Below, one piece after another: positions 2,108 to 20,316 of a DNA stretch of 64,000 nt. Each line of letters begins with the position of its first letter. Position 1 is the stretch's first letter. The DNA lies in the NCBI GenBank assembly GCA_903887325.1, contig CAISPG010000078.1:1-64000 (forward strand), in the 5' to 3' direction. Under the pieces are notes generated by a model. The model saw only the letters and a list, made by a program, of their open reading frames with translations. It made no database searches and was not told the DNA's origin. A program made the translations under genes and the position numbers. The stretch comes from an uncultured Burkholderiales bacterium. Lineage in GTDB: Bacteria > Pseudomonadota > Gammaproteobacteria > Burkholderiales > Burkholderiaceae_C.

Positions 2108-3298
2108 ATGAGTATGTCATCACGTCGTCGGTTTATACAAAAAGGCAGTACCTTGGTTGCTGCCGCAGCGCTTCCTGGCGCCGCACTCTGGCCCGGTTTG
2201 AGCCTGGCTGCTGAAGAGGTCAAGTTGGGCTTGCTGCACTCCATGTCGGGCACGATCGCTTTGGCAGAAGCGGCTATCGTTGACGCGGAAAAAATGGCCA
2301 TCGATGAAATCAATGCCGCTGGCGGCGTTCTGGGCAAAAAAATCGTGCCGGTTCTGGAAGATGGCGCAAGTGATTGGCCTACTTTTGCAGAAAAAGCCAA
2401 AAAATTGCTGCAGCAGGACAAGGTGCCAGCCGTTATCGGTTGCTACACATCAGCATCGCGCAAAGCCGTGTTGCCTGTGTTCAAGGCCAACAAGGGACTG
2501 CTGTACTACCCGACTTATTACGAAGGCCAGGAGGAAGATCCTCAGGTCATCTATACCTCACAGGAAGCCACGCAGTCAGTGGTCGCAGCCATGGAGTGGA
2601 TGGCAAAACAGCAGGGTAAAACTTTCTTCTTTGTCGGGTCGGATTACATTTACCCGCGCACCTGCAACAAGATTGCCAAAGCAACTGCTACCCGCCTGGG
2701 TTCAAGTGTTGTCGGCGAAGAATATGCGCCGCTGGGTCATACAGAGTTCTCGTCCATCATCAACAAAATCAAGGCAGCCAAACCTGACTGGATTTATTCA
2801 ACAGTGGTCGGTGGATCCAACGTTGCGTTCTACAAGCAATTGAAGGCGGCAGGCCTCGACGGAGCCAAGCAAAAGTTGTTGTCAACCGTGGTTTCAGAAA
2901 ACGAAATCGACGGCATCGGCAAAGACAATGCGATTGGTTATTACGCCTGTATGGGTTATTTCCAAAGCATCAAGTCACCGGAAAACGAAAAATTTGTGGC
3001 CGCCATCAAAGCCAAGTACGGTAAGGACCGGGTGGTCGGCGATCCTATGGAATGCGGCTACAACGCAGTGTATTTGTGGAAACTGGCTGTAGAAAAAGCC
3101 AAGTCATTCGATGTGGCCAAGGTGATTGCTGCTTCATCTGAAGTTGAATTCAAGGCACCTGAAGGGCTGGTGAGAATTCACAAAACCAACCATCACGTCT
3201 GGAAGAAAGTACGCATCGGACGGGCACGCGCAGACGGTCAGTTCGACATTGTTCATGAAAGTCAATTGACTGAACCGAACCCGTTCCCCAAGCTGTAA
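2108..3298 (+). CDS. Short-chain amide/urea ABC transporter substrate-binding protein (FmdD/UrtA family)
   Basis: Signal peptide then EEVKLGLLHSMSGTIALAE...AIDEINAAGGVLGKKI...GCYTSASRKAVLPV; paralogous to UrtA at 12393. Confidence 0.88.
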   Translation: MSMSSRRRFIQKGSTLVAAAALPGAALWPGLSLAAEEVKLGLLHSMSGTIALAEAAIVDAEKMAIDEINAAGGVLGKKIVPVLEDGASDWPTFAEKAKKLLQQDKVPAVIGCYTSASRKAVLPVFKANKGLLYYPTYYEGQEEDPQVIYTSQEATQSVVAAMEWMAKQQGKTFFFVGSDYIYPRTCNKIAKATATRLGSSVVGEEYAPLGHTEFSSIINKIKAAKPDWIYSTVVGGSNVAFYKQLKAAGLDGAKQKLLSTVVSENEIDGIGKDNAIGYYACMGYFQSIKSPENEKFVAAIKAKYGKDRVVGDPMECGYNAVYLWKLAVEKAKSFDVAKVIAASSEVEFKAPEGLVRIHKTNHHVWKKVRIGRARADGQFDIVHESQLTEPNPFPKL

Positions 3299-3363
3299 TT
3301 TCTTTAAAGTGAAGTATTCGGACGGCCTGCCGGGTAACCGGCGGGCTGCCGAGGAGAGTTTCT

Positions 3364-4266
3364 GTGAGCCTTGAAATATTCTGGATGCAAATTTTCAGCG
3401 GCGTCAGTTACACAGCAATATTGCTGCTGATGTCTTTGGGACTTGCCATTGTTTTTGGTTTGATGGGTGTCATCAACATGGCACACGGGGAGTTAATGGC
3501 CCTGGGAGCCTACGTCACCTTCATGGTGGCGAATGTGTTTTTAAAAATATTTCCTGATTCCATAGACATCTATATTCTTTTTGCCATACCGGCGGCTTTT
3601 CTGGTGACATTTTTTTTCGGTATGTTCTTAGAGTGGGCTGTCGTGCGCTGGTTTTATAACCGTCCGCTGGATACCTTGCTGGCTACCTGGGGTTTAAGTT
3701 TGATCCTGCAGCAAACTTATCGCACTGTATTCGGCCCTCAGGAAGTCACTATCCCGCTGGCGTCGTGGCTCGATGGTGCTATTGAGCCATTTACCGGTGT
3801 GCAACTTCCTTTGAATCGCATATTCATCATTGTGCTGACGTTGCTGGTTGCTATCGGTGTGTATTTGCTTTTTTTCAAAACTCGCATGGGTTTGCAGGTT
3901 CGAGCCATCACACAAAACCGTGCAATTTCTGAAACAGTAGGCATCAATACCCGCAAGGTCGACATGTATACCTTTGCCCTTGGCAGTGGTCTGGCAGGAA
4001 TTGCGGGCAGTGTCTTCACCATGATCGGATCAACCAATCCGGGTACCGGTCAACTCTATATCGTCGACACCTTCATTGTGGTTGTCTTCGGCGGTGTGGC
4101 CAGCATCATGGGTACTGCGCTGTCAAGTTTCATCATTGCACAACTACAAACTACGTTTGAATTCATGACCACCAGTTCGTATGCCAAAGTCTTGTTGATG
4201 CTGATTGTGGTGATTATTCTGTACTTCCGTCCTAATGGTTTGTTTTCTCCTAAAGTGAGGAGCTGA
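3364..4266 (+). CDS. Branched-chain-amino-acid/amide ABC transporter permease (UrtB/LivH-like, no N-terminal extension)
   Basis: GVSYTAILLLMSLGLAIVFGLMGVINMAHGELMALGAYVTFM; GTG start. Confidence 0.87.
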   Translation: MSLEIFWMQIFSGVSYTAILLLMSLGLAIVFGLMGVINMAHGELMALGAYVTFMVANVFLKIFPDSIDIYILFAIPAAFLVTFFFGMFLEWAVVRWFYNRPLDTLLATWGLSLILQQTYRTVFGPQEVTIPLASWLDGAIEPFTGVQLPLNRIFIIVLTLLVAIGVYLLFFKTRMGLQVRAITQNRAISETVGINTRKVDMYTFALGSGLAGIAGSVFTMIGSTNPGTGQLYIVDTFIVVVFGGVASIMGTALSSFIIAQLQTTFEFMTTSSYAKVLLMLIVVIILYFRPNGLFSPKVRS

Positions 4267-4267
4267 T

Positions 4268-5317
4268 ATGCCAAAAGATTTTTTGCGTAAAAGCTGGTGG
4301 GTAAATTTCGCCATCATCTTTTGCTTTTTATTGCTGCTGCCAGTGATTTCACCGTCTTTCAGAGTTCCGTTATACGGAAAGTACCTTTCCTTTGCATTCG
4401 TCGCTCTGGGCATTGTTCTCAGTTGGGGGTATTGCGGCATTCTGAGTCTGGGGCAAGGCATCTTTTTCGGAATCGGGGCGTATTCACTGGCAATGTTCCT
4501 CAAGCTTGAAGCCTCCAGCCCGGAGTTACCGGATTTCATGGTGTGGAGCAGCGTTGAGCAATTACCGTTGGCTTGGGAGCCTTTTCACAGTCTTGCGTTC
4601 ACCTTGATCTGCATACTGGTTCTGCCGGTGCTGCTTGCATTTCCGTTCACTTACATGATTTTCAAAAAACGGGTCAGTGGCGTTTATTTCTCAATTCTTA
4701 CCCTGGCGCTTTCATTGACTTTGACGGTATTGATCATCGGTAGTCAGGGCGGCACAGGTGGTGCCAATGGCATCACAGACTTCAGTACTTTGCAGGGATG
4801 GGATGTGGCATCGGACGAAGCGCGTATTCGCATGTATTTTCTGATGCTGGGCTTGCTGGCGGTGTGTGCTGTGATTGTCCAATACCTGGTGTCTTCCCGG
4901 TACGGCAAAGTGTTGATTGCCATCAGGGACAGGGAAGACCGGGTGAGATTTTCAGGTTATGACACCGCCTGGATCAAGGCGGCCACTTTGTCTGTGTCTT
5001 GTGTGCTTGCTTCTATCGGCGGCGCCATGTTTGTGTTGTTCACAGGCTTGATTACTCCTCAATTGGTTGGTGCGGTGGCATCAGTTGAAATGATTGTTTA
5101 TGCAGCATTTGGCGGCAGAACTTCAGTGCTTGGTGCGGTATTTGCAGCCTTTGCTGTCGGTTGGCTCAAATCCGCTTTGTCAGAAGAATTTCCACAAGGT
5201 TGGTTATTTTTTCTGGGAGGACTGTTCTTGCTTGTCACTGCGGTTTTGCCGCAGGGACTGGCAGGTTTGACCGGGCTATTTGAAAGAAAGCCGGCAAATG
5301 AAAGTGATGCCAAATGA
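4268..5317 (+). CDS. ABC transporter permease (UrtC/LivM-like)
   Basis: ALGIVLSWGYCGILSLGQGIFFGIGAYSLAM...GGTGGANGITDF; matches the UrtC pattern. Confidence 0.87.
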   Translation: MPKDFLRKSWWVNFAIIFCFLLLLPVISPSFRVPLYGKYLSFAFVALGIVLSWGYCGILSLGQGIFFGIGAYSLAMFLKLEASSPELPDFMVWSSVEQLPLAWEPFHSLAFTLICILVLPVLLAFPFTYMIFKKRVSGVYFSILTLALSLTLTVLIIGSQGGTGGANGITDFSTLQGWDVASDEARIRMYFLMLGLLAVCAVIVQYLVSSRYGKVLIAIRDREDRVRFSGYDTAWIKAATLSVSCVLASIGGAMFVLFTGLITPQLVGAVASVEMIVYAAFGGRTSVLGAVFAAFAVGWLKSALSEEFPQGWLFFLGGLFLLVTAVLPQGLAGLTGLFERKPANESDAK

Positions 5318-6051
5318 GTAAGCAAGCTCTTTTGGAGATCAACGATTTGCTGGTTGCCTTCGGCGGTTTTATCGCCATCGATCATGTCAGTTTGAGTGTG
5401 CTTCATGGTGAAATCCGTTGCATCATCGGTCCTAACGGCGCAGGTAAAACCACATTACTCGATGCCATATGCGGCAAAACGCAGGCAAGTCAGGGAAGCA
5501 TATTTTTTGCTGGTATCAGGATTGACAACGAAAGTGAATTCAAAAGAACGCGACTGGGAATGGGTCGAAAGTTTCAAACGCCTTCGGTCTACGATGATTT
5601 GACGGTTTATCAAAATATTCAAATTTCAGTGCCCAAAGGCCAAAGCATGCTCTCGGCCATATTCAACCAAGACTATCAGTTTGATGACGAAATCCAGGCG
5701 GTCGCTGTTACAACCAATCTTGAGAATTTGCTCACTACACAGGCCGGGACGCTAAGCCACGGGCAGAAGCAGTGGTTGGAAATTGCCATGCTGCTGGTGC
5801 AGCATCCTAAATTGCTGTTACTTGATGAGCCTGTGGCCGGCATGAGTTTGAAGGAGCGAGATCAGACTGTCGATCTCATTCAAAGAATTTCAGCCACTCA
5901 AGCTATTGTGGTGATTGAGCACGACATGGACTTTGTCAAAAAACTATCCGGCAATGTCACTGTATTGCATCAGGGCGCCATTTTGTGTGAAGGTTCCATA
6001 GAACAGGTTCAGATTGATCCGCGCGTGCGGGAAGTCTATTTAGGCGATTAG
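5314..6051 (+). CDS. ABC transporter ATP-binding protein (UrtD-like)
   Basis: Walker A GPNGAGKTT, LSHGQKQWLEI signature, Walker B LLLLDEPVAGMS. Confidence 0.88.
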   Translation: MSKQALLEINDLLVAFGGFIAIDHVSLSVLHGEIRCIIGPNGAGKTTLLDAICGKTQASQGSIFFAGIRIDNESEFKRTRLGMGRKFQTPSVYDDLTVYQNIQISVPKGQSMLSAIFNQDYQFDDEIQAVAVTTNLENLLTTQAGTLSHGQKQWLEIAMLLVQHPKLLLLDEPVAGMSLKERDQTVDLIQRISATQAIVVIEHDMDFVKKLSGNVTVLHQGAILCEGSIEQVQIDPRVREVYLGD

Positions 6052-6054
6052 AAG

Positions 6055-6750
6055 ATGACTCTGCTCAAGACCACAGACTTAATGGCAGGCTATGGACAAA
6101 GTATTGTGCTGCACGGTGTTTCCTTTGAAATGAAGGCACACGAGGCAGTGGCTGTTGTTGGAAAAAACGGCATGTCCAAGTCAACTTTTTTTAAAACTTT
6201 GGTAGGTTTACTTCCGGCGCACTCCGGGCGTATCGAGTTCATGGGACAGGACATCACACAAATGCCCGTTTTTGAACGTGCCCGAATGGGTTTGGGCTAT
6301 GTGCCTCAAGGACGTTTGTTATTTGCGCAATTGACCGTTGAAGAAAACCTGATGACGGCGCTGCAAACCGGTCGTTTGAAAAAAATTCCTGACCTGGTGT
6401 ATGAATTATTTCCTGTGTTGTCGGAGATGAAAAATCGAAAAGCGGGGAATCTGTCCGGCGGTCAACAGCAGATGGTTGCAATCGGGCGGGCTTTGACAGC
6501 GGGGCCGGTTTTATTGATTCTTGATGAGCCTACCGAAGGCATACAACCTTCCATCATCAAGGAAATTGCTGCAGCACTTGTCAAGTTGCAACAAGCAACT
6601 GATTGCACCGTGCTTTTGTCTGAGCAGGTGCTGAGTTTTGCAACCAGCGTTGCTGACCGGTTAGTGGTTTTGGAGCGGGGCGCAGTGGTTCATAGCTGCG
6701 GCAAGGGGGCGGAAGACGTGGATGCCGTCAAGGCATTTTTGACAATTTAA
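6055..6750 (+). CDS. ABC transporter ATP-binding protein (UrtE-like) with altered Walker A (GKNGMSKST)
   Basis: [29 protein letters not shown]; Walker A glycine before the Lys is Ser. Confidence 0.87.
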
Positions 6751-6770: not shown

Positions 6771-7808
6771 ATGAGACACGGAGATATTTCTAGCAGCAAA
6801 GATTGCGTGGGCGTTGCAGTTGTTAACTACAAAATGCCGCGTTTGCATACCAAGGCTGAAGTTCTGGAAAATGCGCGAAAAATCGGCGACATGTTGGTTG
6901 GAATGAAACAAGGTTTACCAGGCATGGACTTGGTTATTTTTCCTGAATACTCAACCCACGGCATCATGTATGACTCCAAGGAAATGTACGAAACAGCCGC
7001 TACTATCCCTGGCGAAGAGACTGAAATTTTTGCAGCAGCTTGCCGTAAAGCCAAAGTCTGGGGTGTTTTTTCATTGACAGGTGAACGTCATGAAGAGCAT
7101 CCGAAAAAAGCACCTTACAACACCTTGATCTTGATGAACGACAAAGGTGAGATTGTGCAGAAATACCGCAAGATCATGCCTTGGGTACCTATTGAAGGTT
7201 GGTACCCCGGTAATTGCACTTATGTGTCAGACGGCCCCAAAGGAATGAAAATCAGTCTGATTATTTGTGACGACGGCAATTACCCCGAAATATGGCGTGA
7301 TTGTGCGATGCGGGGCGCTGAATTGATTGTGCGCTGCCAAGGCTATATGTACCCGGCTAAGGATCAGCAGGTGCTTGTTGCGAAGGCCATGGCCTGGATG
7401 AACAACTGCTATGTCGCCGTTGCCAATGCCTCCGGATTTGACGGCGTTTATTCGTATTTCGGTCACTCGGCTATTGTTGGATTTGACGGTCGCACGCTCG
7501 GAGAGTGCGGCGAAGAGGATATGGGCATTCAGTATGCTGAACTGTCTGTCGGGCTGATCCGTGACGCCAGACGCACCATGCAATCGCAAAACCATTTGTA
7601 CAAATTGCTGCACCGCGGCTACACCGGGAAAATCAATTCCGGCGAAGATGCCAACGGGGTAGCCGATTGTCCTTTTGAGTTTTATTCCAAATGGGTTAAC
7701 GATCCAGAGGGCGCACGCAAAATGGTTGAATCCTTCACTCGCTCTACGCCGGGAACAGACGAAGCGCCGATTGAAGGTATTCCAAATCAATCAACCAAGC
7801 ATCGCTGA
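6771..7808 (+). CDS. amiE: Aliphatic amidase (acylamide amidohydrolase)
   Basis: [38 protein letters not shown]...FPEYS...YRKIMPW...[38 protein letters not shown]; closely resembles Pseudomonas AmiE as recalled; Glu/Lys/Cys nitrilase-type motifs present. Confidence 0.95.
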
Positions 7809-7820
7809 TAACTTGTCCAG

Positions 7821-7870
7821 CAAGCGCCCTGTGACTTCAGTGGTTTCAGGGTGCTGCTTGGGGTTTTGTT
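7821..7870 (+). terminator. Candidate (leaky) intrinsic terminator between amiE and the MoxR gene
   Basis: CAAGCGCCCTG ... CAGGGTGCTGCTTG stem (2-nt bulge, one G-U) followed by GGGTTTTGTT. Confidence 0.5.
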
Positions 7871-8681
7871 AACAATACAAACAGGTATTTCATTCTTGAC
7901 TATTTCATACCACCACTTGGGTGAAGAAGAACTGGTGTTTCGTCAGGCATTCAGTCACTGCTTACCTCTGCTGATTAAAGGCCCCACCGGTTGCGGCAAA
8001 ACACGTTTTGTGGAATACATGGCGCAGCAATTAAAGCTGCCAATGTGGACAGTGGCCTGCAATGAAGATACCAGCGCAAGCGATCTGGTCGGCAGGTACA
8101 TTCTTAAGGGAAATGAAACACCTTGGATCGACGGGCCTTTGACCCAAGCGGTCAGACAAGGTGGTATTTGTTATCTGGATGAAGTGATAGAAGCCAGGCA
8201 GGAAGCACTGGTTGTTTTGAATTCGCTGGCTGATCATCGCCGTCAGCTCTTTATTGACAAAACTGGCGAAGTGCTTCAAGCCCCGCCTGATTTCATGCTT
8301 GTTGTTTCGTACAACCCCGGATACCAGAGCGTGATGCGTGATTTGAAAGAGTCCATCAAGCAGCGCTTCATCGCCGTACGCTTTGACTATCCTGCAGTCG
8401 AACTGGAGCAGCGCATTATTGCTACCGAATCCGGTTGTCAGCCTGGACTGGCGAGAGCGTTGGCCAACTTCGGGGCAAGCTCACGAAAATTAGCCGGCAC
8501 CGGTTTGTTTGAAGGTGTGTCAACCCGCATGCTGATACACGGCGCTAAATTGATGACGACCGAAAAAGCTCAGCAAAATTTGCTGGAAGCTGCTTTGATA
8601 GATCCGGTCACGGACGAGCCAACCATCCGTGCCACTTTGCTGGCTTTGTTGCCACTGGTCCTGGCCGCTGTTCAGAACTGA
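7851..8681 (+). CDS. MoxR-type AAA+ ATPase, CbbQ/NirQ/NorQ subfamily (start uncertain: GTG 7851 or TTG 7896)
   Basis: LLIKGPTGCGKTRFVEYMA...ACNEDTSASDLVGRYILKGNETPWIDGPLTQAVRQGGICYLDEV...VVSYNPGYQSVMRDLKESIKQRF; CbbQ/NorQ motifs. Confidence 0.9.
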   Translation: MLLGVLLTIQTGISFLTISYHHLGEEELVFRQAFSHCLPLLIKGPTGCGKTRFVEYMAQQLKLPMWTVACNEDTSASDLVGRYILKGNETPWIDGPLTQAVRQGGICYLDEVIEARQEALVVLNSLADHRRQLFIDKTGEVLQAPPDFMLVVSYNPGYQSVMRDLKESIKQRFIAVRFDYPAVELEQRIIATESGCQPGLARALANFGASSRKLAGTGLFEGVSTRMLIHGAKLMTTEKAQQNLLEAALIDPVTDEPTIRATLLALLPLVLAAVQN

Positions 8682-8685
8682 GTCA

Positions 8686-10320
8686 ATGCACATGGCAACA
8701 GTGCTTGCAGACAAATGGCTGGAAGCAGTGTTGCGGGGCTTGCAACAACCGGCACAGCAAAAACCGCTGGTTGCACTGGAACGGCACAATAAACAGCAAC
8801 GACTCGCAATTACCCCTTTTGGGTTGTCGTTACCGCGCAGTTTGTCTGAGCAACTGGCCAATGTTTTGCAAGGCGGGTATCAACCTGTAGATTTGTTATG
8901 TATGGCAGCGCATGCCAAGGCCCATTTATTGCACTCCGCTTTTTTTCAGCCGGTGGGTAAATTCAAGCAACTATCGCTGGCCCTGATTTCACTGCTTGAA
9001 GATGAGCGGGTTGAGCGTTTAATTGCTGACGACATAGAGGGCATTGACGCTGTTTTTGCTTCAAGACTGGATATCACGCAGGCGTTGGAAATCGGTGGTG
9101 TAGAAACTCAGCTGGCGAAAATGTCGGTCTGTCTCAACCGCAGAAGCAATGTTTATGACGATTATTGGTGCGGCAAGGCGTTGGCCATGTTTGAGCAGGC
9201 ATTGATCAGCGGCCAAGGCTTTGCTGCCCTGCGTGAAGCCGGCTCCATTCTGGCCAATGATCTCGGGCAAATGCGGTACCGGTTTGACCATACCCGGTAT
9301 GCCGTCTGGCCAGCCTACCGTGATGACAATTCAATTTTGTGGACTGATGCATCTGCTGAACAAAAAATCCGGGAATCTGTTACACACTCCAGCAGCAAAC
9401 CTCCTCCGCTTGAGGAGTTGCCCGTCGTCAAAGAACCTTTTATTTTTTACTATGACGAATGGGATGGTGAAAACTCAGCGATGAAAGAAGCTTTCGTCAC
9501 TGTGAATCACACGGGCTTGACGCCTGGTCATGGGACAAAAGGTATCCCATTGCGGGCAGCGCATGCTACTTCGTTTAAATCTCGCAGAAAACGCGCCATT
9601 CGCGGTGAGTTCAAAGCTGCTACTGACTTCAGTGAACAACTTTGGCTTGATAAGGCCATAGAGCGTAGTGTCGATCTGCGCTGTCTCATATCTCCGGATG
9701 AAAATATCTATCAGCTATGGCAACGCCAGCAACTGAGCACAGGAGTGATGCTCTTGATTGATGCATCTGAATCTGCCAATGACCGGATACCCGGAACCTA
9801 CACCAGTATTTTGGATATTGAGAAAAAATCGATTGCATACCTGGCCGATTTTTTTCAATCCGCACAAATTCCTTTTGCAATTTCAAGCTTTCATTCCAAT
9901 ACCCGTGCTGATGTCAATATATGCCTGCACAAGGATTTTGTATCTGCCTGGTCAACGGCTGAACGCAAGGCTATAAAGGGTTTACAGGCAGGTTTTTCTA
10001 CCAGACTTGGTGCCGCTTTGCGGCACATGGGTACTTTGTGCAGCAAGCGCCTGCAACAACCCATGGTTCTGGTATTGACTGATGGCATTCCCAGTGACGT
10101 TGACGTGGAAAACGATAATTATTTGTTGCTGGATGCTCAATATGCAGTGGCTCAACTCAAGGACGAAGGCGTTGCCATTAATTGTTTGAAAATAGGGTCT
10201 ATGCAAGGCCAGGTCTGTCAACAGATCTTCGGTATCCCGCATACTGTGGTTTGTGAAGCAGACAATATTGAATTGGCTATTCGCAGTGTTTTGAAAAAAA
10301 TTAGAAAGAGCTTTTCATGA
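8686..10320 (+). CDS. VWA-domain protein, CbbO/NorD-like partner of the MoxR ATPase
   Basis: C-terminal VWA with MIDAS-like LLIDASESAND and VLVLTDGIPSDVD; adjacent to the CbbQ-type ATPase. Confidence 0.85.
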   Translation: MHMATVLADKWLEAVLRGLQQPAQQKPLVALERHNKQQRLAITPFGLSLPRSLSEQLANVLQGGYQPVDLLCMAAHAKAHLLHSAFFQPVGKFKQLSLALISLLEDERVERLIADDIEGIDAVFASRLDITQALEIGGVETQLAKMSVCLNRRSNVYDDYWCGKALAMFEQALISGQGFAALREAGSILANDLGQMRYRFDHTRYAVWPAYRDDNSILWTDASAEQKIRESVTHSSSKPPPLEELPVVKEPFIFYYDEWDGENSAMKEAFVTVNHTGLTPGHGTKGIPLRAAHATSFKSRRKRAIRGEFKAATDFSEQLWLDKAIERSVDLRCLISPDENIYQLWQRQQLSTGVMLLIDASESANDRIPGTYTSILDIEKKSIAYLADFFQSAQIPFAISSFHSNTRADVNICLHKDFVSAWSTAERKAIKGLQAGFSTRLGAALRHMGTLCSKRLQQPMVLVLTDGIPSDVDVENDNYLLLDAQYAVAQLKDEGVAINCLKIGSMQGQVCQQIFGIPHTVVCEADNIELAIRSVLKKIRKSFS

Positions 10321-11432
10321 AGACCCTTATTCCTGTTGGCGTACTTTTTTCGCAAACAGGCGCTACCGCTGTGATTGAGAAGACGCAATTGCATGCCACC
10401 ACGCTCGCTATCCATGCCGCGAATCTTCAACTGGCCGCACACGGACTGGAAATTCAGCCTTTTTACATGGATCCGCAGTCTGACCCGTTTCTTTTTTCCA
10501 GCATGAGTGAACAATTGATCACAGAGCATGCGGTGAATGTGATCTTCGGTTGTTACACCTCCATAAGTCGTAAGTCGGTGGTGCCGGTTATTGAAAAGTA
10601 CAACAAGCTTCTTTTCTACCCGACCTTGTACGAAGGATTCGAATTTTCTCCGAACGTGATTTATACAGGTGCTTGCCCGAATCAAAACATCATCATCCTT
10701 GCTGAATTCATGTTTTCCATGTTTGGTAAAAATGTGTATCTCATCGGGTCGGATTACGTTTATCCCTATGAATCCAACCGCATCATGAAAGACATGGTCA
10801 ACGGGTTCGGCGGGCAGATCATGGGTGAGCACTACCTCAGCCTTGATGCCGCCCATGCGGCCTTCAGGCCTTTATTTGCAGATATAGCCGCGTGTAAACC
10901 GGATTTTATATTTTCAACCGTGGTGGGCGCATCAACATCCGCTCTGTATGAAACCTACGCGCAAGCCGGTTTTCAACCGCATACATTGCCTATCGCCAGC
11001 CTCACTACATCCGAGGCTGAGTTGGCGATCATGAATCCTGCTGCACGTGCTGACCACTACACAGCCGCTCCTTTTTTTGCGTCTCTATTAAAGAATTCAA
11101 CCTTACCTGACTGGCAACACTTGGCAGATTTGACAAAAGAAGTACCGGTTAATCAGTGCTGGGAGTCTGCCTATTTTCAGGTTATGCTGTTTGCTAAGGC
11201 GCTTATAGAAGCTGACAATGTCAATACTGACTCTCTGCTCAAGGTACTGCGCGGCATGGAAATAGATGCACCTCAGGGACGCATTCGCATTGACCCGGAT
11301 AACAACCATTGCTGGGTGTATTCGCGCATTGGTCGTTCTTGTGCGAATGGTGATTTTGAAATTGTGAAGGAATCGAAGAGGACAGTGCGGCCTGATCCGT
11401 ACCTGATGTCCTATGCCATTTCAGCTTTGTAG
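10317..11432 (+). CDS. amiC: AmiC-like cytoplasmic amide sensor / negative regulator (PBP fold, no signal peptide)
   Basis: MKTLIPVGVLFSQTGATAVIEKTQLHATTLAI...FGCYTSISRKSVVPVIEKYNKLLFYPTLYEGFE; homologous to the UrtA-type proteins in the window but without a leader; ATGA overlap with upstream gene. Confidence 0.85.
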   Translation: MKTLIPVGVLFSQTGATAVIEKTQLHATTLAIHAANLQLAAHGLEIQPFYMDPQSDPFLFSSMSEQLITEHAVNVIFGCYTSISRKSVVPVIEKYNKLLFYPTLYEGFEFSPNVIYTGACPNQNIIILAEFMFSMFGKNVYLIGSDYVYPYESNRIMKDMVNGFGGQIMGEHYLSLDAAHAAFRPLFADIAACKPDFIFSTVVGASTSALYETYAQAGFQPHTLPIASLTTSEAELAIMNPAARADHYTAAPFFASLLKNSTLPDWQHLADLTKEVPVNQCWESAYFQVMLFAKALIEADNVNTDSLLKVLRGMEIDAPQGRIRIDPDNNHCWVYSRIGRSCANGDFEIVKESKRTVRPDPYLMSYAISAL

Positions 11433-11493: not shown

Positions 11494-12171
11494 ATGGAAA
11501 AGCATGATGTTGTCGCCGGATTACGCCAGATGCAGGTGGGTTTATGCCATCCTCTGGATGCCGAGTGCCGTTTGATATCTCAGCAATTGGAACGACTAGG
11601 CATGCCGTTCCGGCAGGTCTGGCCACCTGTCATGAGCGATTTAATGGCTGTTGATCTGGTGGTTCTGTCTCTGGTGCCTGAAGCTTTCATCAAGATAGAC
11701 AAAGCACTGTTCAATGCACTTAAAAATAAAATCGTGGTGTCAGTTCTGAAATTTGAAAGCCCCACCGTGCTGGAACTGGCCTGCCAATTGAATTCTTCTT
11801 CTTTGTTGTTTTCCCCTGTGAAACCTTTTGGTGTGTTGTCAGCTATTGTGCTGGCAGTCAATCAGCATAAAGTTCGCGAAGATTTGCTCAAACGCATCAG
11901 TAAGCTGGAAGGACGAATTGAGTCTGTGCGCTGCATTGAACAGGCCAAACGCTTTTTGATGGATACCAGCGGCATCAGTGATGCTGAGGCTTTCAAGGTC
12001 ATACGCGACCGATCCATGGACAAACGGTGTTCAGTAGAGGAAGTTGCCCAAAGCATCATCACCGCCAAGGATGCACTTGAATCTGCCCTGGGAGACTCTA
12101 GCCCTTTGGCAGGCCAGCACATAGCCGAATCCGTTCAACGCGGCACAGGTACAGTTGTTCGAATTAAATAA
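11494..12171 (+). CDS. amiR: AmiR-like ANTAR-domain transcription antitermination regulator
   Basis: Degenerate receiver-like N-terminus plus C-terminal helical segment (RISKLEGRIESVRCIEQAKRFLMDTSGISDAEAFKVIRDRSMDKRCSVEEVAQSIITAKDAL) typical of ANTAR; directly after AmiC. Confidence 0.85.
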   Translation: MEKHDVVAGLRQMQVGLCHPLDAECRLISQQLERLGMPFRQVWPPVMSDLMAVDLVVLSLVPEAFIKIDKALFNALKNKIVVSVLKFESPTVLELACQLNSSSLLFSPVKPFGVLSAIVLAVNQHKVREDLLKRISKLEGRIESVRCIEQAKRFLMDTSGISDAEAFKVIRDRSMDKRCSVEEVAQSIITAKDALESALGDSSPLAGQHIAESVQRGTGTVVRIK

Positions 12172-12326: not shown

Positions 12327-12392
12327 AAGGTAGTTGGCGTAGCCCACAAGGCGCGTTTCTTCTAACCCTTGTATTGTTTTGGAGCACATCGA

Positions 12393-13664
12393 ATGTTTAA
12401 CCGTCGCTTTCATCTGAAAACCCTGGTCGCTGCAGCCGCAGTTGCCAGCGGCTCTTTGTACATGACCGCAGTTCAGGCCGCTGACACCATCAAAGTGGGT
12501 GTGTTGCACAGCCTCTCAGGCACCATGGCTATTTCCGAGACCGTGTTGAAAGACACCGTGCTCATGGCCATCGACGAAATCAACGCCAAAGGCGGCGTGC
12601 TGGGCAAAAAGCTCGAGCCAGTGGTTGTTGACCCGGCCTCCAACTGGCCTTTGTTTGCCGAAAAAACCAAGCAGTTGCTCGGTCAAGACAAAGTTGCGGT
12701 GATCTTCGGTTGCTGGACTTCTGTGTCACGCAAATCAGTGCTGCCCGTGGTGGAAGAAATGAACGGCTTGCTGTTCTATCCCGTGCAATACGAAGGCGAA
12801 GAACTGTCTAAAAACGTGTTTTACACAGGCGCTGCACCTAACCAACAAGCCATTCCTGCTGTCGACTATTTGATGAGCAAAGACGGCGGTTCCGCCAAGC
12901 GTTGGGTGTTGCTGGGTACCGACTATGTCTACCCGCGTACCACCAACAAAATTTTGCGTGCTTACCTGATCAGCAAAGGCGTGAAAGAGTCTGACATCGA
13001 CGAAAAATACACACCCTTCGGTCACTCCGACTATCAGACGATCGTGGCCGATATCAAGAAATTTTCAACCGGCGGCAAAACCGCTGTGGTCTCTACTATC
13101 AATGGTGACTCCAACGTTCCTTTCTACAAAGAACTTGGCAATGCCGGTTTGAAAGCCAAAGACGTTCCGGTCGTGGCCTTCTCTGTGGGTGAAGAAGAAT
13201 TGCGCGGCGTGGACACCAAGCCCCTGGTCGGTCACTTGGCTGCATGGAACTACTTCCAATCCATCAAGAACCCCACCAACGATGCGTTCATCAAAAAATG
13301 GTCTGACTACGCCAAAGCCAAAGGCATTGCCGGTCATAAAGACAAGCCTTTGACCAACGACCCGATGGAAGCCACTTACATCGGTATCAATATGTGGAAG
13401 CAAGCGGTTGAAAAAGCCAAGTCCACTGATGTCGATAAAGTCATTGCTGCCATGGCAGGTCAGACATTCACCGCTCCAAGCGGCATCACTTCCAAAATGG
13501 ACGAGAAAAACCACCACTTGCACAAATCTGTGTTCATCGGTGAAATCAAGGCTGACGGTCAGTTCAACGTGGTTTGGAAAACACCCGGCCCTGTGAAAGC
13601 CAAGCCTTGGAGCCCTTACATTCCTGGCAACGACATCAAGCCTGACGAACCTGTCAAGAAGTAA
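12393..13664 (+). CDS. urtA: Urea ABC transporter substrate-binding protein
   Basis: MFNRRFHLKTLVAAAAVASGSLYMTAVQAADTIKVGVLHSLSGTMAISETVLKDTVLMAIDEINAKGGVLGKKLEPVVVDPASNWPLFAEK; GGAG RBS upstream. Confidence 0.95.
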   Translation: MFNRRFHLKTLVAAAAVASGSLYMTAVQAADTIKVGVLHSLSGTMAISETVLKDTVLMAIDEINAKGGVLGKKLEPVVVDPASNWPLFAEKTKQLLGQDKVAVIFGCWTSVSRKSVLPVVEEMNGLLFYPVQYEGEELSKNVFYTGAAPNQQAIPAVDYLMSKDGGSAKRWVLLGTDYVYPRTTNKILRAYLISKGVKESDIDEKYTPFGHSDYQTIVADIKKFSTGGKTAVVSTINGDSNVPFYKELGNAGLKAKDVPVVAFSVGEEELRGVDTKPLVGHLAAWNYFQSIKNPTNDAFIKKWSDYAKAKGIAGHKDKPLTNDPMEATYIGINMWKQAVEKAKSTDVDKVIAAMAGQTFTAPSGITSKMDEKNHHLHKSVFIGEIKADGQFNVVWKTPGPVKAKPWSPYIPGNDIKPDEPVKK

Positions 13665-13771
13665 TTCAATAGGGAATGCATTGGCTGCGTGAGCAGTCAA
13701 TGCGGGATGCGAAACATGAGGGGGAGGGCGCAAGTCACTCCCCCTTTTGATGAACAGCGAAAAGAGCAGGT

Positions 13772-15352
13772 ATGAAAGCGATAGCTTTATTTTTAGCAGT
13801 GTGTGTGTCTGTGCTTGGAACGACATCTGCACTGGCACTCACGCCTCAGCAGGTACATGACATAGTGACGGGCGAAACTGACGCCCGAATTGAAAGTCTG
13901 CAAAAGGCATTGGCACAAGCCGATGCGCAGACAGCCGTATTTTTGCAAGCCTTGGCAGATGACGCTGTCGTCATTGCAGGTGAGCAAGTTGTCGTTGTTC
14001 GTGACGGCAAAGGCTTTGATCCGGCAACAGGCAAAGACATGTCCGTGCCTGCAAGCGCAGAAGGCGTGGTCAGCAACAACCGCATGCGCGGCGAAATCGA
14101 TTCAGCCCTGGCTGCATTGCAATTGCTCAGCCCGGGTGATGCGATGCGCACGAAAGCAGCGCAGGCTTTGGTGTCTGAGCCCGATCCGAGTAAAAAACCG
14201 CTGCTTGAAAAAGCCATTACAGCAGAGAAAAATCCTGCCATCAGCCAATTGCTGCTGCTGGCGCAAGCTGCCATTGACATCAGCAGCACAGACGCCGCCG
14301 TGCGCTTGGCCGCTGCCAAGGCTTTAGGCAACAGCAAAACGCCAAACACGCAGTTATTGTTGAATCAACAAATGAAGTTGGAAACCGATGCAGCGGTGAG
14401 AGCGCAAATGAAGGCTTCCTTGGCAGAGATCAAATCCGCATTGGCTTGGGGCGAGCGACTCGGTGCGTTATTCACCGGTTTAAGTCTGGGATCTATTTTG
14501 TTACTGGTCGCGCTCGGCTTGGCCATCACTTACGGTTTGATGGGTGTGATCAACATGGCGCATGGCGAATTGATGATGGTCGGTGCGTATGCCACCTATG
14601 TGGTGCAGGCTTTTTTTCGCAAGCACATGGGCGGTGCTTTCGATTACTACCTGGTCGCCGCTTTGCCTATGGCATTTATCTCGGCTGCTTTGGTCGGCGC
14701 ATTGCTGGAGCGCGCGGTGTTACGCCATTTGTACGGCCGCCCGCTGGAAACATTGCTGGCTACCTGGGGCATCAGTTTGATTTTGATGCAAACCGTGAGA
14801 ACCATTTTCGGGGCTCAAAACGTCGCAGTGGAAAACCCGTCATGGATGAGCGGCGGCATACAGGTGTTGGCAAATCTCAGTTTGCCGTGGAACAGATTAT
14901 TGATTGTGGTATTTGCTTTGCTGGTGCTTGGCGGTGTGGCTTTGTTGATCAGCCAGACACGGTTAGGTTTGTTTGTACGCGGCGTCACGCAAAACCGCGC
15001 CATGGCCTCTTGCATGGGCGTGAACACTGCACGAATAGATACCTATGCATTCGCACTCGGCTCGGGCATTGCCGGTTTGGCTGGTTGTGCGTTGAGTCAA
15101 ATAGGTAACGTAGGTCCCGACTTAGGTCAAGGCTATATCGTCGACGCATTCATGGTGGTGGTGCTTGGCGGGGTCGGTCAACTGGCCGGCACGGTCTATG
15201 CCGCTTTAGGGCTGGGCGTGCTCAACAAATTATTGGAAGGTTGGACCGGGGCAGTGCTGGCGAAGATCGCCGTGCTGGTGTTCATCATCATCTTCATCCA
15301 GAAACGACCGCAAGGCTTGTTCGCGATGAAGGGCCGCAGTGCGGAGGCATGA
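13772..15352 (+). CDS. urtB: Urea ABC transporter permease with N-terminal helical extension
   Basis: 526 aa; N-terminal alpha-helical repeat region then LGSILLLVALGLAITYGLMGVINMAHGELMMVGAYATY. Confidence 0.95.
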   Translation: MKAIALFLAVCVSVLGTTSALALTPQQVHDIVTGETDARIESLQKALAQADAQTAVFLQALADDAVVIAGEQVVVVRDGKGFDPATGKDMSVPASAEGVVSNNRMRGEIDSALAALQLLSPGDAMRTKAAQALVSEPDPSKKPLLEKAITAEKNPAISQLLLLAQAAIDISSTDAAVRLAAAKALGNSKTPNTQLLLNQQMKLETDAAVRAQMKASLAEIKSALAWGERLGALFTGLSLGSILLLVALGLAITYGLMGVINMAHGELMMVGAYATYVVQAFFRKHMGGAFDYYLVAALPMAFISAALVGALLERAVLRHLYGRPLETLLATWGISLILMQTVRTIFGAQNVAVENPSWMSGGIQVLANLSLPWNRLLIVVFALLVLGGVALLISQTRLGLFVRGVTQNRAMASCMGVNTARIDTYAFALGSGIAGLAGCALSQIGNVGPDLGQGYIVDAFMVVVLGGVGQLAGTVYAALGLGVLNKLLEGWTGAVLAKIAVLVFIIIFIQKRPQGLFAMKGRSAEA

Positions 15353-15353
15353 C

Positions 15354-16478
15354 ATGAACAAACTTCAACTTCCTCAACCCGTTCGTTTGTTGTCGCCTCT
15401 GGGTTGGACGGTATTCATCGGTCTGCTGCTGTGTGTCAGCCTGTTGGCTCCAGCGCTGAATTTGTGGTTGCCGGTGAGCCATCCTTTGCATATGAGTGAC
15501 TTCGCTGTCTCGCTGGTCGGCAAGATCATGTGTTACGCCATATGCGCGTTAGCCATGGATTTGATCTGGGGCTACACCGGCATCTTGTCTTTGGGCCATG
15601 GTTTGTTTTTTGCACTCGGCGGTTACGCCATGGGCATGTATTTGATGCGTCAGATCGGCACCGACGGCAATTACAAATCCGAACTGCCTGACTTCATGGT
15701 CTTCCTCGATTGGAAAACCTTGCCCTGGCACTGGTACTTCAGCGACAGCTTTGTGGCTACCTTGCTGTTGGTGGTGCTGGCACCTGGATTGCTGGCTTTG
15801 TTGTTCGGCTACTTCGCGTTCCGTTCACGCATCAAAGGGGTGTATTTCTCCATCATCACGCAGGCCATGACTTTTGCTTTCATGCTGCTTTTCTTTCGCA
15901 ATGAAACCGGTTTTGGCGGCAACAACGGCTTCACCGATTTCAAACGAATTCTGGGCACACCGATTGCCACGCCGAACATGCGCATGTTCTTGTTTGTGTT
16001 GACCGGTGTGTGTTTGCTCGGTTGTTATTTGGCAGCTCGTTGGTTGGTGCAAAGCAAATATGGCCGGGTGTTGCAAGCCATACGCGATGCTGAAAGCCGG
16101 GTGATGTTCAGCGGTTACTCACCACTGCCATTCAAACTCAGCATCTGGGTGATTTCCGCAGTGATGTGCGGTGTTGCAGGTGCCTTGTACGTGCCTCAGG
16201 TTGGCATCATCAACCCCAGCGAAATGAGTCCTGCGAATTCGATTGAAATCGCCATCTGGGCAGCGGTCGGCGGACGAGCCAGTTTGATCGGTCCGATTGC
16301 CGGTGCCTTCATGGTCAACGGTGTCAAGAGTTGGTTGACGGTGGTCGCACCCGAGTATTGGTTGTATGTATTGGGCGCCTTGTTTATTGCAGTGACTTTG
16401 TACATGCCTCAAGGTGTCATTGGTTTGTTGGGCAATATCAAACAACGCCTGGCTGCACGCAAAGGGGAGCCGTCATGA
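15354..16478 (+). CDS. urtC: Urea ABC transporter permease
   Basis: DLIWGYTGILSLGHGLFFALGGYAMGMYLMRQIG...NETGFGGNNGFTDFKRILG. Confidence 0.94.
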   Translation: MNKLQLPQPVRLLSPLGWTVFIGLLLCVSLLAPALNLWLPVSHPLHMSDFAVSLVGKIMCYAICALAMDLIWGYTGILSLGHGLFFALGGYAMGMYLMRQIGTDGNYKSELPDFMVFLDWKTLPWHWYFSDSFVATLLLVVLAPGLLALLFGYFAFRSRIKGVYFSIITQAMTFAFMLLFFRNETGFGGNNGFTDFKRILGTPIATPNMRMFLFVLTGVCLLGCYLAARWLVQSKYGRVLQAIRDAESRVMFSGYSPLPFKLSIWVISAVMCGVAGALYVPQVGIINPSEMSPANSIEIAIWAAVGGRASLIGPIAGAFMVNGVKSWLTVVAPEYWLYVLGALFIAVTLYMPQGVIGLLGNIKQRLAARKGEPS

Positions 16479-17347
16479 CACCTGAACTCATGAGCGAAGG
16501 CGCAGAGCGACTGGAGAAACACAAATTCAGACTAGTGCAGCCTGTGTCGTCCGGTGACCGGGGCGCCAGCTTCTCGCGCATTCACCACCCGGGTGAATTG
16601 GATGTGGCGCATGGACGCATTTTGTATCTGGAAGATGTGAACGTCAGCTTTGACGGCTTCAAAGCGATCAACAACTTGTCGCTGGACATTGGTGTGGGCG
16701 AATTGCGTTGCATCATCGGCCCGAATGGGGCTGGCAAAACGACCATGATGGACATCATCACGGGCAAAACCAAGCCGGATTCGGGCCAGGTGTTTTTCGG
16801 CAGCACCATTGATTTGCTGCGTCACAACGAGCCCGAGATTGCGCAAATGGGCATAGGCCGTAAATTTCAAAAACCCACGGTGTTTGAGCAACTGACTGTA
16901 TTTGAAAATCTGGAACTGGCACTAAAGACTGGCAAAGGTGTGGCCGCTTCCATGCTGTTCAAACTCAACGGCGAACAACAAGACCGTTTGAGCGAAGTGC
17001 TGCACACCATCCATTTGGAAAATCATTTATTGCGCCAGGCGGGCAACTTGAGCCACGGACAAAAACAATGGCTGGAGATCGGCATTTTGTTGATGCAAGA
17101 CCCCAAGCTGTTGCTGCTGGATGAACCGGTCGCTGGCATGACAGATCAGGAAACTGAGCGCACGGCTGAATTGTTTTTGTCGCTCAAAGGCAAACATTCG
17201 CTGATGGTGGTTGAGCACGACATGGCATTCATCCGGCAGATTGCCGATGTGGTGACCGTGTTATGTGACGGCTCTGTGCTGGCGCAGGGATCGTTTGATG
17301 ATGTGCAAGATGACGAACGCGTCATCGATGTTTATTTGGGGCGCTAA
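16475..17347 (+). CDS. urtD: Urea ABC transporter ATP-binding protein
   Basis: CIIGPNGAGKTTMMDIITGKTKPDSG, LSHGQKQWLEIGILLMQDPKLLLLDEPVAGMT. Confidence 0.94.
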   Translation: MTPELMSEGAERLEKHKFRLVQPVSSGDRGASFSRIHHPGELDVAHGRILYLEDVNVSFDGFKAINNLSLDIGVGELRCIIGPNGAGKTTMMDIITGKTKPDSGQVFFGSTIDLLRHNEPEIAQMGIGRKFQKPTVFEQLTVFENLELALKTGKGVAASMLFKLNGEQQDRLSEVLHTIHLENHLLRQAGNLSHGQKQWLEIGILLMQDPKLLLLDEPVAGMTDQETERTAELFLSLKGKHSLMVVEHDMAFIRQIADVVTVLCDGSVLAQGSFDDVQDDERVIDVYLGR

Positions 17348-17350
17348 AGC

Positions 17351-18043
17351 ATGCTGGCGATAGAACATATTCACCAATACTACGGCGGCTCGCACATCTT
17401 GCGTGATGTCAGTTTGACTGCAAAAGCAGGACAAGTCACTGTGCTGCTGGGGCGCAACGGCGTGGGTAAAACCACCTTGCTCAAAGCCTTGATGGGTCTG
17501 GTGCCGGTGCGCGAAGGGCACATCAGTTTTGCAGGTCATACGGTCACCAAAGCCACGCCTTACGAGCGAGCCCGCGCAGGTATCGGTTATGTGCCGCAAG
17601 GCCGTGAGATATTCAACCGCCTCACCGTGGAAGACAATTTGCGCATGGGACTGGCGACCCAAGCTGCTTCTGCCGAAATACCTGCTGAGTTGTTTGAACT
17701 GTTTCCTATCTTGGATCAGATGCGCAGCCGTCGCGGCGGCGATTTATCCGGTGGACAGCAACAACAACTCGCCATCGCCCGTGCACTGGCCGGCAAGCCT
17801 AAATTGCTGGTGCTGGACGAACCCACTGAAGGCATACAACCGAGCATCATCAAAGACATAGGACGTGTCATACAACGACTGGCTGCACGCGGTGACATGG
17901 CCATATTGCTGTGTGAACAGTACTACGACTTTGCAGAAGAACTGGCGGATCAATACCTGGTCATGGAGCGTGGCGAGGTGATTGCGCAGGGCCCGGGGTC
18001 AGAGATGAAGAGCAAGGGCATACGCAAACTGGTTTCTATTTGA
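17351..18043 (+). CDS. urtE: Urea ABC transporter ATP-binding protein
   Basis: MLAIEHIHQYYGGSHILRDVSL, canonical [40 protein letters not shown]. Confidence 0.94.
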   Translation: MLAIEHIHQYYGGSHILRDVSLTAKAGQVTVLLGRNGVGKTTLLKALMGLVPVREGHISFAGHTVTKATPYERARAGIGYVPQGREIFNRLTVEDNLRMGLATQAASAEIPAELFELFPILDQMRSRRGGDLSGGQQQQLAIARALAGKPKLLVLDEPTEGIQPSIIKDIGRVIQRLAARGDMAILLCEQYYDFAEELADQYLVMERGEVIAQGPGSEMKSKGIRKLVSI

Positions 18044-18181
18044 CGCTTATAGCTCGTAGCAATGACTGACTTCTTAATTACTCTCTGATAGTAGTATCTG
18101 CTGTTCCGAATTTATCTGTGTTGAATAAGTGCATACTGTCTTAACTTGCAAGCGCAAGTCAGTACAGGTCAGGACAAAGAG

Positions 18182-19426
18182 ATGGAATTACAAACTGAGT
18201 TATTGAGTGGTTTTGCCACCGCCATAGGCATAGGTTTATTGATAGGCACAGTCAGAGAAAAACTCCATAACGCCCAGACCCTGACTTCGGGTATCAGAAC
18301 TCACGCATTGCTGGCTGTCATCTCAAGTGCCGCCATGACCATCAGTGCCACCGCTTTTCTGGTGACATTTGCCATCGTTGGCGCTTTGGTAGTGGTCGCA
18401 TACCGTCAAAACATGCAGTCCGACCCCGGCATGACAGGTGAGGTTTCGTTGTTGGCAACTGCCATGTTGTCAGCCTTGGCAAGTCAGGATCCTGCTCTGG
18501 CGTCTGCCTTGGGTGTGGTGGTTGCGGGTTTGCTATTTGCCAAGATTCCACTCAGGCGATTCAGCCGGGAAATGCTCAGCACCACCGAATTACAAGACGG
18601 TTTATTGTTGTGCGCCGCTATTTTGGTTGTGCTTCCATTGCTTCCAAAGCAACCCATCGATCCCTGGGGTGTGTTGCAGCCTTACGCCTTATGGCGCATT
18701 GTGGTGTTGATCATGGGGGTAGGCGTGCTCGGTCACGTGGCATTGCGCGTGGTGGGTACTTTTTGGGGTTTACCGCTGACCGGATTTTTCTCAGGCTTCG
18801 TGTCTTCTACCGCTGCTTCAGCCACATTTGGTTACCAAGTCAAGCAACAACCTGACTTATTAGGCGTATCTGTGGCCGCCACTGTGTTGTCCAATGCGGC
18901 TTCTGTCGGTTTGCTGGCCTTGGTTTTGCAAGTCAGTGCACCTGAATTTTTACAAACAGTGTGGGCACCTTTGGCTGCGGCAATAGCTTGCTTGTTGTTG
19001 ACTTCATTTTTCTGGTTACGCCACAGTAATGTGCATGGCGTGACATCCATGCAATTGATTGGCCATGCGTTTAATCTGCGCTATGCCTTATTGATTGCCT
19101 TCATCATCAGTTTGGTGCTTTTGCTCTCAGCCATCATGGGCGAATGGATGGGTGAAGCCGGTGCAATCGCGTCTGCGGTTTTTGTGGGTTTAGGTGAAAT
19201 ACATGCAGCCGGTATCAGCTTGGCGCACTTGAGTCGCTTGCCTGAGCATTCCGACATGCACTTGCATTGGGGCTTATGGGGTGTGTTGGCAGCAAGCACT
19301 TTGTCTAAATCAGTGCTTGCCACCATCAGCGGTGGATGGGCATTTGGCTGGCGTATCGCGTCTGCACTGGTATTGATGCTGCTGACATTCGCCGCTGTAT
19401 TGTTCTGGCATCATGCGCTGGTATGA
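18182..19426 (+). CDS. MgtC/DUF4010-family multispanning membrane protein
   Basis: MELQTELLSGFATAIGIGLLIGTVREK...GIRTHALLAVISSAAM...GVVVAGLLFAKIPLRRFSREMLSTTELQDGLL; many TM segments. Confidence 0.75.
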   Translation: MELQTELLSGFATAIGIGLLIGTVREKLHNAQTLTSGIRTHALLAVISSAAMTISATAFLVTFAIVGALVVVAYRQNMQSDPGMTGEVSLLATAMLSALASQDPALASALGVVVAGLLFAKIPLRRFSREMLSTTELQDGLLLCAAILVVLPLLPKQPIDPWGVLQPYALWRIVVLIMGVGVLGHVALRVVGTFWGLPLTGFFSGFVSSTAASATFGYQVKQQPDLLGVSVAATVLSNAASVGLLALVLQVSAPEFLQTVWAPLAAAIACLLLTSFFWLRHSNVHGVTSMQLIGHAFNLRYALLIAFIISLVLLLSAIMGEWMGEAGAIASAVFVGLGEIHAAGISLAHLSRLPEHSDMHLHWGLWGVLAASTLSKSVLATISGGWAFGWRIASALVLMLLTFAAVLFWHHALV

Positions 19427-19479
19427 ATCAATGTAAGCGGCAGACTTGCTTGAAAAGCCGCACCTCTGCACAGCAAGAA

Positions 19480-20316
19480 CTACATGGCCCAGATGCGCGG
19501 CGCCACCGCAGGCAGTTGCCAACAGCGGCTGCGCCATTGCAGCCACACCGAGCGCATCAGCTCCATGGCACTTTCCACTTGGTCTGACAGCACCCGCAGC
19601 ACCACCACACGGGCATCCGGTGAAGACACCCCGGCTTGCAATCTCAGGCGATGCGACTCGCACAATTCCCGCGCCAAGGCAACGACCTGTGCGCGGTAGT
19701 CCTCGCTCATTGCCGTGCCTTGTGCAAACACCAAGGTGGACTGGCAACTGTGCCCGTTCAAACCCAGCGGACTGTGTAACAAGCGGTGATCGGTGGCGGC
19801 GATCAAGCCGCGTTCCAGCCATGTGCCGGTAATTTCCAAGTGCTGCTGAAACTGACCGCTGAGAAACGGTTGATCCGCGTGCGGCAAACCCAGTGCCGTG
19901 ACATCCCATGCCATCAGGCGGCTGCCCGCTTCCAGATGAAACACGGCCTGGTTATGCGCCTGACAGCCGTTGTAGGCCAGTGCTTCCAGCGGCAACCATT
20001 CCAGGCAAGCGCCGTCAGCCACATGTGCATGCACTTGCTGGCGCGCAGTTTTTGCGTCCGAGCCGTAAAAACGGGTGGCGCCGGGCGTGGTGAGCAGCGC
20101 ATGCGCCCCGGCTTGCAAATTGATATCGATCAGCAATTCATCGCCGCCAACCAAGCCGGAAGGCGGGTGCACAAGTATGTTGTGGCAGACCCGGTCACCT
20201 TCGGGGTAAAGGCTTTTCAATATGCGCAGCGGCCCATGGTGTTCATGGCGGGCCACACAACGCTGGTCTTCGACACTGTAGTCAACCTTCAGTCTGGCCT
20301 GCCATCCCATAAGCAC
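19480..20316 (-). CDS. ureD: Urease accessory protein UreD
   Basis: MGWQARLKVDYSVEDQRCVARHEHHGPLRILKSLYPEGDRVCHNILVHPPSGLVGGDELLIDINLQAGAHALLTTPGATRFYGSD; typical UreD. Confidence 0.94.
   Translation of the reverse strand: MLMGWQARLKVDYSVEDQRCVARHEHHGPLRILKSLYPEGDRVCHNILVHPPSGLVGGDELLIDINLQAGAHALLTTPGATRFYGSDAKTARQQVHAHVADGACLEWLPLEALAYNGCQAHNQAVFHLEAGSRLMAWDVTALGLPHADQPFLSGQFQQHLEITGTWLERGLIAATDHRLLHSPLGLNGHSCQSTLVFAQGTAMSEDYRAQVVALARELCESHRLRLQAGVSSPDARVVVLRVLSDQVESAMELMRSVWLQWRSRCWQLPAVAPRIWAM

Follow-up and report, generated by a model that had tools for sequence, protein, structure and literature searches.

A CbbQO-type ATPase/VWA adaptor pair in an amidase operon and the amidase AmiE as its probable client

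The window, which is the whole analyzed stretch of 64,000 nucleotides from an uncultured Burkholderiales bacterium, harbors a cbbQ-like and a cbbO-like gene inside an amidase operon. The gene order is amiE, cbbQ-like, cbbO-like, amiC, and amiR, and the genes are tightly spaced within an amide/urea uptake cluster. The features are as follows.

2108..6750, + strand: Urt-type ABC transporter (substrate-binding protein, UrtB, C, D, E; TIGR03408-03411, Peripla_BP_5)
6771..7808, + strand: amiE, aliphatic amidase of the nitrilase superfamily (NCBIfam NF009802, 723 bits versus a cut-off of 427)
7800..7805, + strand: His344-Arg345 codons at the AmiE C-terminus, proposed CbbQO recognition tag (tail–pair covariation; Rubisco motif)
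7896..8681 (open frame from 7851), + strand: cbbQ-like MoxR AAA+ ATPase (PF07728, 113 bits; PF08406 CbbQ_C, 71 bits)
8686..10320, + strand: cbbO-like VWA adaptor (MIDAS residues; NorD profile and model matches)
9760-9774: MIDAS D-A-S-E-S of the cbbO-like gene, with the Thr439 codon at 10000-10002 and the Asp466 codon at 10081-10083
10317..11432, + strand: amiC, amide-sensing negative regulator (Peripla_BP_5; ATGA overlap with the VWA gene)
11494..12171, + strand: amiR, ANTAR antiterminator (PF21332 AmiR_N and PF03861 ANTAR)
12369-18043, downstream of amiR: second Urt-type ABC transporter set (UrtABCDE)

A sequence-only reading had described the pair as lying between amiE and amiC with very tight spacing, which is borne out by the stop at 8681 followed by the start at 8686 and by the ATGA overlap at 10317. 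The start codon of the cbbQ-like gene is probably the TTG at 7896. The first Urt-type transporter (2108..6750) is a probable amide/urea uptake system. Beyond the second UrtABCDE set, a gene for an MgtC/DUF4010 protein is followed by UreD on the other strand (window 12369-20316).

The catalytic residues E59, K134, and C166 of AmiE are all present and belong to the invariant columns. The cbbQ-like ATPase carries the Walker A motif GPTGCGKT (7980-8003), and its closest solved structure is CbbQ (6l1q, E 3e-83). The Pfam VWA score of the cbbO-like protein falls slightly below the cut-off, but its MIDAS residues (D359-x-S361-x-S363, T439, and D466) are complete and do not vary among 33 relatives. 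In the PDB, the profile of this protein matches NorD (9qhd, E 1e-75), and its predicted model resembles the NorD VWA domain (9qh6, E 3e-19). The window thereby shows the hallmarks of the CbbQO family: a CbbQ-type AAA+ ATPase with CbbQ_C, an adjacent C-terminal VWA with an intact MIDAS, and a neighboring candidate client, AmiE, that ends in KHR. The neighbors of the pair are amiE, amiC, amiR, and the Urt genes; no Rubisco genes adjoin it, and norB and norC are absent from its annotated neighbors.

The linkage of the pair with amiE is conserved across genomes. When named genomes were scanned with the window AmiE as query, a CbbQ/CbbO pair was found to lie at most 9 kb from amiE in 72 of 80 loci and at most 400 bp away in 59; these loci are the nearest to the window AmiE and overstate the pair frequency for AmiE at large. 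The co-occurrence that the sequence-only reading had proposed as a check is thus found, and chance does not account for it. The pair is on the same strand as amiE in 58 of the 72 loci and on the opposite strand in 14, which indicates that the adjacency survives rearrangement. In the alphaproteobacteria Ancylobacter and Rhodopseudomonas, for example, the pair takes the opposite strand and faces amiE, and on an Ancylobacter plasmid, it is situated past a urease cluster. Of 398 evenly sampled genomes in the phylum, 35 contain AmiE, and the pair accompanies 10 of the 36 AmiE genes, the window counted. AmiC/AmiR occur in about two thirds of the loci that have AmiE and CbbQO, on either side: AmiR lies within 9 kb in 46 of the 72, either upstream or downstream of amiE. 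In six loci of at least 15 kb, AmiC, AmiR, and the Urt genes are all absent. Because these genes vary or are missing while AmiE and CbbQO persist, AmiE is the constant partner of the pair. On an Agrobacterium plasmid (L285), a single AmiE is flanked by two different CbbQ-CbbO sets.

The most telling feature of AmiE is its C-terminus. A His-Arg/His-Lys pattern was first seen in the listed AmiE C-termini, before any comparison with the Rubisco papers, and additional sequences then served to test it (32 further AmiE loci from the order, 28 from one genus, and 17 plasmid records). Among 194 AmiE, 120 of the 121 pair-positive proteins end in H[RK] and the remaining one in HA, compared to only three of the 73 pair-negative proteins (70 lack the ending) and a background of 5/1157 long open frames in these loci. 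The pair-positive class includes three HR/HK AmiE with the pair elsewhere in the same genome, not beside amiE (L036, L057, and L062), and two that were scored from the initial BLAST annotation (L019 and L031). Of all 345 AmiE columns, residues 344 and 345 discriminate best between the two classes. The penultimate histidine is present in all 121 pair-positive AmiE, and positions -3 to -7 are variable. The tail is weak in the predicted AmiE structure, which is of moderate quality (pLDDT 76) and does not place it with confidence. As to the three H[RK] AmiE without an AmiE-type pair, the genome of one (L084) has no CbbQ, and the other two carry a CbbQ elsewhere, which adjoins Rubisco in one of these genomes (G435; the other is G473).

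The association also holds between close relatives. The genome of the window contains two AmiE, one ending in KHR with the pair and one ending in NGS without it; the second copy (L119, G000:C88:31212-32234) is 82% identical and serves as a natural internal control. Another genome (G402) likewise combines a GHR-ending AmiE with the pair and an NGA-ending AmiE without it. In one alphaproteobacterial genus, probably Methylobacterium, four CbbQO-positive species (G155, G701, G728, and G729) all end in HR, and none of the CbbQO-negative species examined does. An AmiE tree from which the tail was left out gives, by parsimony, 11 gains or losses of the pair and 12 tail changes. Eight of the 11 CbbQO gains or losses share branch and direction with a tail change, compared to at most five in 20,000 random placements (null p < 5e-5). 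An independent-pairs sign test has four to six pairs on well-supported branches, which are too few to reach 0.05, and none of them runs in the opposite direction. Two side observations concern other tails. In the alphaproteobacterial genus g124, AmiE without CbbQO share an -NY ending (L137-L142, L145, and L148); no motor was seen with them, and the ending might tag them for another partner. On an Acidithiobacillus caldus plasmid (L289), an AmiE ending in RHK is followed by a broken CbbO, and the 17 kb stretch shows no recognizable CbbQ; this AmiE might be served by a CbbQO on the chromosome.

The same C-terminal motif is known from Rubisco. In Acidithiobacillus Rubisco, deletion or extension of the HK/R motif abolishes both activation by CbbQO and stimulation of its ATPase, the last residue can be changed while the penultimate histidine hardly can, a C-terminal Rubisco peptide stimulates the CbbQO ATPase, and activation requires both the MIDAS of CbbO and an acidic residue on the Rubisco surface (Tsai 2015, PMC4660213). 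Rubiscos without cbbQO lack the motif (Tsai 2021, PMC8718961). The Rubisco large subunits that we sampled next to CbbQO end in KLDVAHK/R or KLGVHK, with one KHA, and NorB, the client of NorQD, lacks an HK/R tail. The AmiE tail pattern follows the published rules for the Rubisco tail, the natural HA variant included.

The phylogeny of the pair points in the same direction. In a tree of CbbQ plus CbbO, AmiE-linked and Rubisco-linked pairs form one clade with a support of 100, and NorQD and an orphan group fall outside. The window pair is unusually diverged. On CbbQ alone, it sits on a long branch and is not placed; with CbbO added, it falls inside the AmiE/Rubisco HK/R clade and outside NorQD. 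In the first two trees, Rubisco pairs fell within the diversity of the AmiE pairs, but a single AmiE-pair clade is not rejected (AU p 0.21). At CbbO position 438, beside the MIDAS threonine, the AmiE/Rubisco clade has serine (50/50), as does the window, and NorD and the orphan pairs have tyrosine (22/22). Clade-separating columns number one in CbbQ and two in CbbO, which is too few to map a tail pocket. A distinct CbbQ-CbbO clade was also observed (L244, L245, L254, L259, L262, and L274), with Rubisco, NorB, and AmiE not recognised nearby.

Compared to the CbbQO Rubisco activases of Acidithiobacillus ferrooxidans (Q1O1 and Q2O2; 6l1q), the window pair shares the motor and adaptor architecture, the MIDAS residues, an adjacent client gene, the C-terminal HK/R with its conserved penultimate histidine on the client, and membership in the same clade. 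The differences are that AmiE is a cysteine amidase unrelated to Rubisco and that the CbbO of the window is short, with ~545 aa versus ~770 aa reported for Rubisco CbbO. The nitric oxide reductase maturase NorQ/NorD (9qh6 and 9qhd) is similar in pairing a MoxR ATPase with a VWA partner, and the CbbO profile and model match NorD, but it differs in its separate clade, in the tailless NorB client, and in the tyrosine that NorD carries before the MIDAS threonine in place of serine.

Because tail, linkage, and phylogeny agree, the window pair is very probably a CbbQO-type activase with the neighboring AmiE as its client. Counting against this are the many AmiE that do without the pair, the three HR-tailed AmiE that have no AmiE-type pair, the small number of independent pairs on well-supported branches, and the divergence and short CbbO of the window pair. 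The activation role for AmiE that had been suggested from the sequence alone thereby gains strong support from the common C-terminal HK/R tag and the conserved linkage. By homology, CbbQ would form a hexameric ATP motor and CbbO would be its single adaptor. As published for Rubisco, the MIDAS site of CbbO would hold an acidic residue on the client surface, and the His-Arg/His-Lys tail would be bound in the complex. ATP-driven remodeling would then pull AmiE open and render the blocked enzyme active again. AmiE binding, the state that is repaired, and the direction of the force are steps that we infer. The blocked state may be a dead-end active-site complex, at a guess a stuck acyl or carbamoyl thioester derived from urea-like compounds. 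Repair of a blocked amidase is favored over assembly by analogy with Rubisco. Urea and thiourea are reported to inhibit formamidases (PMC10781810), and the cluster contains urea-type transporters. Our literature searches returned nothing on a blocked state of AmiE itself. The amidase of Pseudomonas aeruginosa reportedly shows time-dependent inhibition by urea and hydroxyurea.

A second kind of ATPase is found beside amiE in other genomes. AmiB of the P. aeruginosa ami operon, reportedly described by Wilson et al. in 1995, had been likened to the window ATPase; the likeness stands as far as an AAA+ gene beside amiE is concerned and misleads as homology. AmiB-like ATPases beside amiE are Clp-type AAA+ proteins (PF07724, AAA_2, with ClpB_D2-small) without a VWA partner, whereas the window ATPase lacks these domains and has AAA_5 and CbbQ_C instead. 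Homology between AmiB and CbbQ was therefore rejected, and P. aeruginosa AmiB itself is probably Clp-type, to judge from its relatives. The 12 loci with an AmiB-like ATPase beside amiE (L120-L124, L128, L129, L133, L152, L153, L296, and L297) are all without CbbQO, and within the 194-AmiE set, the two were never seen together. Their hosts are apparently Gammaproteobacteria, plus two Actinomycetota. The gene lies directly downstream of amiE in 11 of the 12 and is divergent upstream in Rhodococcus, and the AmiE beside it carry a different conserved tail of their own. The AmiB-like ATPase looks like an unrelated AAA+ protein that fills the same slot as CbbQO. That two unrelated AAA+ machines occur at the same place lends support to the idea that a remodeler benefits AmiE.

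Three other explanations have to be weighed. The main one is that CbbQO acts as an assembly or maturation chaperone that aids the folding or correct oligomerization of AmiE, with the HR tail still as the handle. The same linkage and tail evidence speaks for it, the sister pair NorQD matures its client by metal insertion (PMC13036017), and a 2026 paper suggested a role in assembly or activation (PMC13209695). Nevertheless, many genomes, that of the window included, encode close AmiE relatives that lack the pair, and the tail is shared with the Rubisco repair clade and not with NorQD. Enzymes of the nitrilase superfamily have neither metal nor cofactor, which leaves nothing to insert into AmiE. 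The solved AmiE structures 2plq and 2uxy are from enzymes that lack the HR tail and presumably also the CbbQO pair. Since these enzymes and many further AmiE do without the pair, AmiE folding does not require it, and we regard the chaperone role as unlikely.

A client other than AmiE is far less probable still. The position of the window pair between amiE and amiC, with its overlap, would suit a role in which CbbQO gates induction through AmiC/AmiR or uptake through the Urt transporter. Such gating of AmiC/AmiR had been raised by the sequence-only reading and does not survive the variation in neighborhoods described above, by which AmiC/AmiR and the transporter were ruled out as clients; moreover, the tag is on AmiE. 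It is also very improbable that the tail merely marks an operon lineage, in which amiE and cbbQO spread together as a modular cassette that carried HR along without a function. Tail and pair do move together, on plasmids too, as this would predict, but fixation is confined to the last two residues, with free variation just before them, Rubisco, though unrelated, combines this dipeptide with CbbQO of the same clade, and the changes of tail and pair coincide on the AmiE core tree.

The arrangement itself has a precedent. The plasmid-borne ami operon of Pseudomonas veronii Yu15 contains CbbQ- and NorD-like genes in the same order, and an amidase assembly or activation role was suggested from this one plasmid without evidence, with homologs noted in Burkholderiales; that paper contains no analysis of the tail, phylogeny, or client (PMC13209695). 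No report linking an HK/R tail with an amidase was found in the literature searched, which was mostly open-access.

So far, Rubisco activation is the only role known for CbbQO, and AmiE, if the reading is correct, would be its second client. The machine would then recognize a transferable handle and not Rubisco itself. A broader reading, which we hold tentatively and with some doubt, makes CbbQO an enzyme-repair module of general use that would recognize a C-terminal His-Lys/Arg tag wherever unrelated enzymes carry it, with amidase repair maybe the older function from which the Rubisco activase was recruited. One of the three classes of Rubisco activases would thereby gain a possible origin. 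As a small, soluble, and easily assayed client, AmiE would lend itself to working out the mechanism, and the roles of both the MoxR pair and AmiB in amidase operons become testable. Further clients may be sought by a simple rule, namely proteins that end in His-Lys/Arg beside CbbQO genes.
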